DNA of 64,000 nt, from the NCBI GenBank assembly GCA_030715195.1, contig JAUYVI010000001.1, positions 62,001-126,000 on the forward strand, written 5' to 3'. Positions 24,218-27,135 of the stretch are shown in pieces (position 1 is the stretch's first letter; the number at the start of each line of letters is the position of its first letter). Below the pieces are notes generated by a model that was not told the DNA's origin, searched no databases, and saw only the letters and a program-made list of their open reading frames with translations. The DNA comes from Dongia sedimenti (GTDB lineage Bacteria; Pseudomonadota; Alphaproteobacteria; Dongiales; Dongiaceae). A program made the position numbers and the translations under genes.

Positions 24218-24307
24218 AAACCACGCGCCCCAGGCAGTCCGAGCCGAAAAGCGCCGGTCGCGTCTATGCCCGCAGATCGCCCAGGAATTCAGCCATAAAA
24301 CATACTA

Positions 24308-24336
24308 TTGTGTAGGCATAACAGCTGAGCTATACT
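24308..24336 (+). promoter_or_regulatory. predicted sigma70-type promoter of the DUF2280 gene
   Basis: TTGTGT (24308-24313) and TATACT (24331-24336) with a 17-base spacer that contains CAGCTG. The start would be near 24343, about 133 bases before the ATG at 24476. Confidence 0.6.
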
Positions 24337-24475: not shown

Positions 24476-25435
24476 ATGACCGCAATGCAGACCGCACACA
24501 GACAGCCCGAAGACACCACCGAGACCCCGAAAGACCGGCTGAAGGCGTTCATCGAGACGCGCCTGGCCCGCCGCGAGACGACCACGGTGATCGCCAACGC
24601 CGCGCGGGCCTATTTCGAGATTGAGATCGAGGACGCGCAGGTCATCCCCTACTGGAAAGGCGAGATCACCCTGCCGACGCAGACCGAACGCAGACAGGAT
24701 AAGGAATCCGCGCAATTTCCCGAGGACGAAGCGAAGGCGCCGCTCTTCACCCGCATGCCCAGCGGCGAAACACCCGGCGAGACGCCCGAAGTCCTGCCGG
24801 CGCCATTCTCCATTACGCCGGATCCGGGTGTGCTCGCCGAAGAGGACGCGCCAACGCAGACGGCACACAGACAGGATGCAGACTCCCTGCAGATCCCGGT
24901 GGACGTGCGGGAAGACCCCGACGCCGCGCGCCACGCCGCCCTCGAAGCGCTGGGCGAGCAGGTGAAGGCGCGGCTCGGCATCGCGCCGGACCCGAAGCCG
25001 ACAACGCAGACCGGACGCAGACAGAATCAGAAACGGTCGGTTCTGACCGACGAGGTTAAGGTGTTCATCGTCAAGGGCTTGGCGCGCTACGAGACGCCCA
25101 GCCGCGTGGCGGCGTCTGTGTTGGCCGAGTTCGGCATCGCGATCGACCGGCGGCAGGTCTTCGCCTATGACCCCGCCGGCTCGCGGCCCCCGGCGCAGCG
25201 CTGGATCGATCTCCACGCCGCGGCGCGGGCGAAGTTCCTGCGCGCCGTCTCGGAGATCGGTGTCGCGCAGAAAGTGGTGCGGCTGCGCATGCTGGATCGC
25301 CTGGCCAACCGCGCCGACGAATCCAACCAGACCGAGCGGGTCGCCAAGCTCCTGGAGCAGGCGGCGAAGGAATGCGGCGGCTTCTACGAGCGCTACGCGC
25401 GCCCGAAGGGTGTTCAGGCGCCGGCCTCTGCCTGA
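24476..25435 (+). CDS. DUF2280 (phage-type) protein with internal repeats
   Basis: A 319-residue protein whose C-terminal half (about residues 190-315) matches DUF2280, a family found mainly in prophages and thought to resemble terminase small subunits: TDEVKVFIVKGLARYETPSRVA, FGIAIDRRQVFAYDP, then KFLRAVSEIGVAQKVVRLRMLDRLA and LLEQAAKECGGFY. The first 41 residues of that domain are duplicated near the N-terminus (residues 20-60; 17 of 41 identical by eye). Four copies of a QT-x-x-RQ motif with about 14 related following residues begin at residues 5, 69, 128 and 178. The ATG at 24476 follows GGAGAGGAGAC; ATG 24485 is an alternative. No other phage gene adjoins it; it ends 6 bases from the convergent RHH gene. 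Whether it acts in DNA packaging, regulation or something else is unknown. Confidence 0.8.
   Translation: MTAMQTAHRQPEDTTETPKDRLKAFIETRLARRETTTVIANAARAYFEIEIEDAQVIPYWKGEITLPTQTERRQDKESAQFPEDEAKAPLFTRMPSGETPGETPEVLPAPFSITPDPGVLAEEDAPTQTAHRQDADSLQIPVDVREDPDAARHAALEALGEQVKARLGIAPDPKPTTQTGRRQNQKRSVLTDEVKVFIVKGLARYETPSRVAASVLAEFGIAIDRRQVFAYDPAGSRPPAQRWIDLHAAARAKFLRAVSEIGVAQKVVRLRMLDRLANRADESNQTERVAKLLEQAAKECGGFYERYARPKGVQAPASA
24487..25024 (+). repeat. four dispersed 19-bp in-gene repeats
   Basis: Copies of GCAGACCGRACRCAGACAG occur at 24487-24505, 24679-24697, 24856-24874 and 25006-25024, offset by 192, 177 and 150 bases, all multiples of three. Copies 1 and 3 (ending CACACAGACAG) and copies 2 and 4 (ending ACGCAGACAG) form two alternating subtypes. 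They encode the QT-x-x-RQ motif of the DUF2280 protein. Confidence 0.85.
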
Positions 25436-25441
25436 GTGGTC

Positions 25442-25678
25442 TCAGCGCGCGTCGCGCTGGCGCAACACGAAGACGCGGATCGCGCTGGAGAGGTTCGGCG
25501 CGGCGGGATCAGCGGCACGCGCGTCGTCGATCTCGGCGATGAGTCCGGCGACCGTGGCGTTGCGCCGCTGCGCGATCACGGTCAGCGCTTCCCAGAACGC
25601 GGCCTCCAGGGTCACGCTGGTGCGATGCCCGGCGATGCTGACCGAATGCTTCTGCAGGCGTGTCGGCGAAGCCGCCAT
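25442..25678 (-). CDS. ribbon-helix-helix (RHH_4) protein
   Basis: A 78-residue protein with the core KHSVSIAGHRTSVTLEAAFWEALTVIAQRRNATVAGLIAEIDDAR and NLSSAIRVFVLRQ, which is the RHH_4 family common in alphaproteobacteria. Such proteins are probably small DNA-binding dimers. I start it at ATG 25678, 32 bases after the fumC stop, because the conserved domain begins shortly after; the frame extends upstream over the fumC end. It is probably co-transcribed with fumC. Its own target is unknown. Confidence 0.85.
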   Translation of the reverse strand: MAASPTRLQKHSVSIAGHRTSVTLEAAFWEALTVIAQRRNATVAGLIAEIDDARAADPAAPNLSSAIRVFVLRQRDAR

Positions 25679-25710
25679 CAGCGGAAGCCCAAGCGCACGG
25701 ACTTCGGATG

Positions 25711-27135
25711 TTACTTCGGCCCGAGCATGTCTTCCGGCCGCACCCACTGGTCGAACTGCTTCTCGGTCAAGAGGCCGAGCGCCAGCGCCGCTTCCTTGAG
25801 GCTGGTGCCTTCCTTATGGGCCTTCTTCGCCACCTTGGCGGCGTTGTCATAGCCGATATGGGTGTTGAGCGCGGTCACCAGCATCAGCGACTGTTCCAGC
25901 GACTGCTGGATCCGCGGCAGGTTCGGCGTGATGCCGACCACGCAATTGTCGGTGAAGCTCATCGACGCGTCGGCGATCAGCTGGCCGGATTGCAGCACGT
26001 TGTGGATGATCACCGGCTTGAAGACATTGAGCTCCAGGTGGCCGTTCGAGCAGGCGACTGTGACGGCGACGTTGTTGCCCATGATCTGCGCCGCCACCAT
26101 GGTCATCGCCTCGGCCTGGGTCGGGTTGACCTTGCCCGGCATGATCGAGGAGCCGGGCTCGTTCTCCGGCAGGTTGATCTCGGCGAGACCCGAGCGCGGG
26201 CCCGAGCCCAGCAGGCGGATGTCATTGGCGATCTTCATCAGCGAGCAGGCGATGGTGTTGTAGGCGCCGGAAATCTCGGCGAAAGCGTCATGCGCCGCCA
26301 TGCCCTCGAACTTGTTCTCCGCCGCAACGAACTTGAAGCCGGTCAGCGCCGACAGCTCGGACGCGAAGGCCTTGTCGAAGCCCTTCGCCGCGTTGAGCCC
26401 GGTGCCGACCGCCGTGCCGCCCTGGGGAATGGCGAGCAGATGCGGCAGGCAGGACTTCACCCGGGCGATGCCGTTCTTCACCTGCGCCGCATAGCCGGAG
26501 AACTCCTGGCCGAGCGTCACCGGGGTCGCATCCTGCAGATGGGTGCGGCCGATCTTGATGATCTTGCCGAACTCTTTCGCCTTCTGGTCCAGCGCCTTTT
26601 GCAGATGCGCGAGCGCCGGGATCACCTCGTCCTGGATCTGCCGCACGGCGGCGATGTGCATCGCGGTCGGGAACGAGTCGTTGGACGACTGGCCGTAATT
26701 CACCTGGTCGTTGGGATGGATCGGCTTCTTGTCGCCGCGCTTGCCGCCCAGCATCTCGTTGGCGCGGTTGGCCAACACTTCGTTCACGTTCATGTTGGTC
26801 TGGGTGCCGGAGCCGGTCTGCCAGACCACCAGCGGAAAGTGCTCGTCCAGCGCGCCGGAGGCGACTTCCGCAGAGGCGGCATCGATCGCCTTGCCGAGCT
26901 TCGGGTCGAGCTTCTTCAGCTTCATGTTCGCCCGGGCCGCCGCCTGCTTCAGCAGGCCGAAAGCGCGAATGAGCCCGACCGGCATCCGCTGCCCGCCGAT
27001 CTTGAAGTTCTGCAGGCTCCGCTGGGTCTGCGCGCCCCAGAGCTTGTCGGCCGGCACGTCGATCGGGCCGAAGGAATCGGTTTCGCTGCGGGTGGCGGTC
27101 TTCGAGGCGGCGGATTTCAGGGCGGCTTTCGCCAT
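25711..27135 (-). CDS. fumC: class II fumarate hydratase FumC
   Basis: Iron-independent fumarase of the TCA cycle (fumarate to L-malate), a cytoplasmic homotetramer. The 474 residues include [71 protein letters not shown], and the superfamily signature [13 protein letters not shown]. The N-terminal ten residues ([11 protein letters not shown]) are a short extension. The length is close to E. coli FumC. It heads an operon with the RHH_4 gene on the minus strand. Confidence 0.97.

Follow-up and report, generated by a model that had tools for sequence, protein, structure and literature searches.

The stretch of DNA that we analyzed (the window; 64,000 nucleotides of the Dongia sedimenti genome) contains a long DUF2280 gene, in which a first-pass annotation had noted four near-identical 19-mers. 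The features of the locus, from left to right, are the following.

24285-24290, + strand: GAATTC; at the DNA level, the similarity to two sister copies (L022, L023) starts at 24294
24300-24313, + strand: ACATACTATTGTGT, an imperfect ACACTATTGTGT palindrome, seen by sequence comparison with sister genes
24331-24336, + strand: TATACT, a −10-like hexamer at the position of the sisters' CTATAnT, by consensus resemblance only
24476-25435, + strand: long DUF2280 gene, 319 amino acids (open reading frame, DUF2280 match at 4.3e-28, coding score); no adjoining terminase gene recognized
24487-24505, + strand: site copy 1 (QTAHRQ), the least exact pair, TGCAGAC/CACAGAC
24538-24652, + strand: degenerate duplicate of the DUF2280 helix-turn-helix, after copy 1 (nhmmer, 1.6e-8, profile positions 21-135)
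24679-24697, + strand: site copy 2 (QTERRQ), by sequence match
24856-24874, + strand: site copy 3 (QTAHRQ), by sequence match
25006-25024, + strand: site copy 4 (QTGRRQ), at the ancestral position, ~17 nt 5′ of the DUF2280 domain
25043-25327, + strand: DUF2280 domain (PF10045), residues 190-284, E value of 4.3e-28
25148-25168, + strand: predicted recognition helix RRQVFAY, residues 46-52 of the modeled 140-amino-acid domain

A ribbon-helix-helix protein (RHH_4, 3.2e-26) is encoded on the − strand at 25442-25747, with the DUF2280 gene on one side and a fumarase-like gene on the other. The repeats had been reported as spanning 24487-25024 inside a DUF2280 gene. They do lie inside it, but the gene itself runs from 24476 to 25435, so the span starts within the open reading frame.

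Four in-frame 19-mers in the order A-B-A-B were confirmed, starting at 24487, 24679, 24856, and 25006, at a level far above chance. The intervals between them are 192, 177, and 150 bp, each a multiple of 3, and after a common GCAGA copies 1 to 4 read CCGCACACAGACAG, CCGAACGCAGACAG, CGGCACACAGACAG, and CCGGACGCAGACAG. Within each 19-mer, a heptamer occurs twice in direct orientation, CGCAGAC-N4-CGCAGAC, with a period of 11 bp (one DNA turn), and in copies 2 to 4 the heptamer pair is followed by AGAAT or AGGAT. The first-pass annotation had described the repeats as a QT-x-x-RQ motif. The peptide is indeed encoded in frame, but the motif is not chiefly a peptide; it is a DNA heptamer pair, and it is not unique to this gene, being dispersed across the genome. 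Since the segment at 24538-24652 is a degenerate duplicate of the helix-turn-helix, copies 1 and 4 both precede homologous segments, and the repeat pattern therefore arose in part by duplication of the site together with the domain.

Scanning the whole genome with the degenerate 19-mer gave 132 matches at up to 2 mismatches, compared to 2 for a reversed control; the consensus 19-mer had 94 near-exact copies, compared to 0 for the control. With these counts, we set aside a chance origin of the repeats. The first-pass annotation had held that its idea would fall if the 19-mer proved to be common genome-wide, which it is. This finding enlarges the idea rather than ending it, because the copies elsewhere in the genome are themselves part of the DUF2280 system. 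Among the 95 other genomes searched with the consensus, 3 had one or two scattered matches, and the consensus was absent from all 16 that belong to the same family. A longer 19-mer pattern found 2 lone actinobacterial matches in 84,980 named species genomes (own species excluded), which we took as chance, and a viral search for the exact 19-mer context gave 0 matches. Related site types were also frequent: sites of the GGTTTAC form had 32 genome-wide matches at up to 3 mismatches (control, 0), and a pattern for further types had 47 (control, 4), of which, as judged by eye, 34 were perfect pairs, 3 were pairs with one difference, and 10 were unrelated.

There are 17 DUF2280 genes in the 6.13-Mb genome, all above the Pfam cutoff; gene calls were made specifically for this genome. 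A protein search found no DUF2280 in 40 relatives, and a family search found 0 in 384 other members of the class. Inspection by eye of gene starts indicated that 16 of the 17 apparently have only housekeeping genes around them, and beside these lone genes, no integrase, capsid, or replication genes were recognized in this way; the gene C26_23 is preceded by a phage-like-looking gene. A heptamer pair lies 12 to 29 nt 5′ of the DUF2280 domain in 15 of the 17 genes, in six types, when 6 or more of the 7 heptamer bases must match. The exceptions are C20_121, which has three CGTTGAC pairs further upstream, ~106 nt from the domain, and C12_782, in which the pair before the domain is broken. Six long genes have CGCAGAC or CACAGAC sites, three genes have CCTTTAC, and three have CTTGTAC/CTTTTAC; the further types are CCCCGAC, GGTTTAC, and TCCCGAC/TCACGAC (the last in C26_23).

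The long genes number seven, namely, the window gene and six sisters 54 to 96% identical to it (tblastn), and their proteins contain QTxxRQ because the reading frame runs through the site. In eight short genes, 12 to 14 nt separate the end of the pair from the start of the domain match, and the GGA of the pair is likely the Shine-Dalgarno core. The leaders of short paralogues (upstream of L091:5121, L093:5055, L094:5366, and others) also contain tandem stem-loop-like units, CGCCGTGCCGGG ... CCCGATAACGCGGC, which from their sequence are possibly a regulatory RNA structure.

We ran the synonymous-site test that had been suggested for the repeats. The second arginine of the motif is encoded by AGA in 22/22 in-frame sites of the long genes (an overlapping out-of-frame match, L022 3258, was excluded), compared to 1.2% of arginine codons in called genes. 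Similarly, the glycine, where present, is GGA in 13/13 in-frame sites, compared to 5.3% genome-wide. Among the seven long paralogues, codon pairs for identical residues differed in 22/345 cases inside sites and in 1013/3955 outside; for arginine codons of the same seven genes, the counts were 0/67 and 128/441, respectively. The suspicion that the DNA is constrained beyond what the peptide requires thus gained support, although gene conversion could mimic constraint on codons in the sites.

Upstream of the coding regions, 12 of the 16 DUF2280 modules displayed have GAATTC on the 5′ side of the −10 region, and this hexamer also occurs near the left end of intergenic elements. The ACACTATTGTGT palindrome precedes the −10 region in three sisters, at the place taken by a LexA-type box in six other paralogues. 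Such a box, GAAC-N7-GAAC (GTTC-N7-GTTC), abuts CTATAnT in 6 of the 17 DUF2280 genes and is absent from the other 11; there are 16 boxes in all in 536 kb, counting both strands. One of them precedes a gene that we presume, from its sequence, to be lexA. By sequence, six DUF2280 genes have the promoter box of the LexA/SOS regulon of alphaproteobacteria, and some of the DUF2280 genes may accordingly be SOS controlled. One paralogue, L092:4515-5438 (C20, ~462 kb), has both a GGTTTAC site and a LexA-type box; its neighbors resemble comEC and gltX, with the presumed lexA gene close by.

Homologues with the same repeats had been proposed as a further test, and phage DUF2280 leaders share the paired half-site arrangement. 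Of 50,697 phage records, 318 contain relatives of DUF2280, 181 of these records being from Salinibacter, and IMG/VR yielded relatives as well. A viral scan with the window's own DUF2280 domain found no relative; a paralogue query found 23, and a phage protein query found 542, of which 80 were kept. The resulting 113 viral loci (80 of them from one scan for close relatives) have 66 distinct upstream regions. Two half-sites ending in AC, 10 to 11 bp apart, occur in 58/66 of these regions, compared to 91/8060 other ATGs in the same loci, and the pair lies 12 to 13 nt before the ATG in 55/66, compared to 4/8060. The first AC was at a spacing of 10 (24 regions) or 11 (34 regions) in 58 of 59 anchored regions, and both halves had an identical KAC in 57 of the 59. 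The anchored pair was missing from 8/66 upstream regions, including that of the Salinibacter representative, L227; some of the eight look like variants or like a misplaced start (L085). The viral sites sit outside the coding region, and in phages and short paralogues alike, the second half-site merges into the Shine-Dalgarno sequence just 5′ of the DUF2280 start codon. No second copy of the leader site within 5 mismatches was found in two phage genomes searched whole. An alphaproteobacterial DUF2280 gene on a Sinorhizobium meliloti plasmid (L228; NZ_CP021821.1) has a perfect CTTTGAC-GGGG-CTTTGAC just before its start.

The two halves of a site change in concert. Neither the co-variation tests nor the ATG control required the halves to match. 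The 36 distinct viral pairs agree at 3.42 of 5 positions, compared to a mean of 2.22 and a maximum of 2.81 in 20000 shuffles that ignore relatedness. For 23 distinct intergenic pairs from this genome, agreement was 3.78 of 5, compared to a shuffled value of 2.08 and a maximum of 3.04 (5000 shuffles, again ignoring relatedness and with loci that had been picked by site type). Among loosely anchored intergenic sites, the halves agree at 5/5 positions in 73/108, and at L043 the homologous second site of aligned elements is of another type on both halves.

The base before AC also co-varies with the protein. Among 57 viral entries, residue 50 and this base are E with G in 45, G with G in 3, and A with T in 8, with one gap. 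The excess mutual information with this base is higher for residue 50 than for any other column (z = 22.1; the other nine listed columns reach at most 8.8), and residue 50 falls within residues 46 to 52, the helix placed third of the helix-turn-helix by AlphaFold2. Domain models have three short helices followed by long helices, with modest confidence (pLDDT 70 and 73). On a tree built without the residue-50 column, there were 6 base changes and 6 residue-class changes (with E, G, and gap treated as one class). At the three bases more distant from AC, the columns that correlate best are 12, 34, and 38. None of these is part of the predicted recognition helix, and the data therefore point to a single contact; residue 51 ranks only fourth, for two of these three bases. 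We infer from the co-variation that residue 50 probably touches the base before AC. Among the 17 paralogues of this genome, residue 50 fails to predict the base, Y occurring with both TAC and GAC types.

To describe the dispersed copies, we tabulated 168 sites in the fetched loci, requiring that 6 or more of the 7 heptamer bases match and fixing the flanking letters, a rule that misses some sites, such as window copy 1 and the C22_691 site. There were 24 sites in genes and 144 between genes. All but one of the 24 in-gene sites (23/24) are in DUF2280 genes, and the 24th is in the end of the gene preceding C26_23. The 144 intergenic sites form 62 loci, of which 7 are leaders to intact DUF2280 genes and the remaining 55 are not. 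More than one site was present in 41/62 loci, with all sites on one strand in 41/41, and 36 of the 62 loci contain more than one site type, a count that is biased because the loci were chosen by site patterns. Convergent gaps made up 32/56 site-bearing gaps (median, 548 bp), compared to 62/368 other gaps in the same loci (median, 25 bp). A DUF2280 profile match (E value up to 10; best, 7.2e-9) lies within 110 nt downstream on the same strand for 43/135 intergenic sites, compared to 6 matches upstream and 0 on the other strand; in some arrays, the first DUF2280 codons follow the site on the same strand in truncated or decayed form. Many places in this genome share a 310-bp element that begins near ATTCCTGAATTC. 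A search by DNA for the empty site of one locus in six congeners matched only scattered pieces outside the 310-bp element, no Rfam family reached its gathering score in the 12 loci searched of more than 50, and by eye, array strand had no consistent relation to third-codon GC skew.

The arrays on contigs C21, C22, and C23 mostly point the same way. Five contig ends near sites (L017, L019, L021, L036, and L045, on contigs C2, C3, C12, and C21) have similar sequence, with ~153 bp at 98 to 100% identity in four of the five. The assembly thus breaks at the DUF2280/site family, so that the true copy numbers may be higher than those counted.

The function of the phage family DUF2280 (PF10045, phrog_546) is given as unknown, and one paper that names it lists it in this way, next to a large terminase; searches of open papers gave no report of a DUF2280 site. 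The idea that it is a candidate terminase small subunit gained support from the phages: the next gene is annotated as a terminase in 9/10 DUF2280 phages, and the tenth, Salinibacter 5_13, has hypothetical names only. By these annotations, phage DUF2280 genes lie beside the large-subunit gene; beside those of this genome, none was recognized by eye. No known small terminase matched DUF2280 significantly by sequence or fold. Among named families, searches returned only DUF2280 itself in Pfam and PHROGs of unknown function, with nothing significant in NCBIfam or PDB; in Foldseek, with the DUF2280 model (pLDDT 70 to 73), the small terminases of G20c and P74-26 appeared at E values of 2 to 8 and a TM score of ~0.25. 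The only large-terminase-like match in the genome, L234 (C1:194188-195015), was found by one phage query, is 35% identical over part of its length, and is not beside any DUF2280 gene. Because the window gene has housekeeping neighbors and this sole match is elsewhere, the repeats find no support as the pac site of a phage in the window.

We propose that the repeats are probably the cognate DNA site of DUF2280, as pac and/or operator, captured into frame in the long paralogues. That they are DUF2280's own site, as the first-pass annotation had suggested, is the most likely reading because phage leaders share the arrangement and residue 50 co-varies with the base, and the concerted change of the half-sites points the same way. 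The site would consist of two half-sites ending in GAC or TAC, 10 to 11 bp apart on the same strand, each read by the predicted helix-turn-helix with residue 50 contacting the base before AC. In phages, DUF2280 would probably be the small terminase subunit, and by its position and the precedent of SPP1, the site may serve as pac, as an operator through which the protein silences its own gene, or as both. In the present genome, the family would have expanded to 17 paralogues, most of them lone in the chromosome, with sites of six or more types; in the seven long paralogues, the frame passes through what would be former leader sites, yielding QTxxRQ. The family presumably spread as promoter-site-gene modules, many now decayed, and truncated copies of promoter, site, and gene start would have produced the one-stranded arrays between genes. 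A bolder version strikes us as improbable: that a phage packaging-recognition protein has been domesticated into a multi-specificity system of 17 small-terminase-like proteins, several of them SOS controlled and each with its own site type, for which the more than 50 directional intergenic loci would be chromosome landmarks or starts from which a gene transfer agent or a helper phage packages host DNA.

A competing explanation that we consider a real possibility, though not the one we favor, is that the site is an operator only. DUF2280 would then be an autorepressor, acting at the DNA or mRNA level to close its own ribosome-binding site, with no role in packaging, and the dispersed sites would be a regulon or serve in titration. 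The fixed 12 to 13 nt to the ATG and the Shine-Dalgarno fusion in viruses are consistent with such an operator, the fusion being found also in short paralogues, as are the single site copy in the two phage genomes and the lack of a recognized large terminase beside the chromosomal genes. However, an operator alone does not account for the place of DUF2280 directly before a terminase gene in 9/10 phages, and the intergenic sites are often not before genes, 32/56 of the site-bearing gaps being convergent. It is also rather unlikely, in our judgment, that the sites are functionless today, as neutral leftovers of the tandem and dispersed duplication of a phage-derived gene and its later decay, the likeness of the sites reflecting recent common descent or gene conversion. 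Such leftovers would resemble the weak, truncated DUF2280 starts held by the arrays (downstream of 43/135 sites), would be frequent in convergent gaps, where insertions harm little, and would be confined to this species, as they are in the sets searched; gene conversion could mimic part of the codon and matched-half signal. Against this, synonymous divergence is four times lower inside the sites than in the rest of the same genes, and the halves stay matched while the types differ, as in the 73/108 intergenic sites that agree throughout and in L043, where both halves have switched.

Two other explanations fare worse. If the 19-mer were an independent mobile repeat, like a Rickettsia palindromic element or REP, inserted in frame by chance, then its 94 to 132 dispersed copies, mostly intergenic and clustered, and the 310-bp element with its recurrent left end would be readily explained. 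Yet the repeats are direct and not palindromic, the same arrangement precedes DUF2280 genes of unrelated phages, the tabulated in-gene sites are confined to DUF2280 genes apart from the one at the end of a gene just before such a gene, and intergenic copies carry DUF2280 sequence along; we regard this origin as very improbable. Hardly credible is selection on the peptide QTxxRQ, as a linker or interaction motif, with the DNA identity as a by-product: the site is in frame in all seven long paralogues, but the rare AGA codon is used in every one of the 22 sites, other paralogues retain the DNA architecture although they encode TFTGPLQ or GFTQGLQ there or carry the pair outside the gene, and phage sites are outside the coding region.

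For DUF2280, the data suggest candidates for its job, its DNA target, and a contact residue, and the paralogues with different site types would be a natural set for working out a helix-turn-helix recognition code. The genome adds to this a chromosomal expansion of a phage packaging-type gene.

Several known systems resemble this one in part. PICI satellites carry their own small terminase and pac site. As in PICIs, a packaging-type gene here travels with its site; unlike in PICIs, no accompanying integrase, capsid, or replication genes were recognized by eye beside the lone DUF2280 genes. PhoB/OmpR-type operators consist of 7+4-bp direct repeats with an 11-bp period on one DNA face. The present sites likewise have two heptamers and an 11-bp period, but the partner, DUF2280, is of a different protein family. 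Similarity to the REP/REPIN-RAYT system (PMC3116915, PMC2817692, and PMC8266576) lies in the short extragenic multicopy sequences of several types and in a related chromosomal gene family; the repeats here are, however, direct and not inverted, and the partner is a phage helix-turn-helix protein rather than a tyrosine transposase, so we did not assign them to REP/RAYT. Nor did we assign them to the Rickettsia-type in-frame palindromic elements, since 23/24 tabulated in-gene sites are in DUF2280 genes and the other is in the end of the gene before one. As for the small terminases of SPP1/SF6-like phages, PMC4737164 describes the recognition of pac by small terminases as poorly defined and the SF6 domain as binding DNA largely without sequence preference, the latter counting against the reading we favor. 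DUF2280 is like the SPP1/SF6-type proteins in being a predicted helix-turn-helix protein whose phage gene directly precedes that of the large terminase. It differs in its compact heptamer pairs one turn apart and in having no significant sequence or fold match to them, and this bacterium, unlike those phages, has 17 mostly free-standing copies of the gene together with dispersed sites.
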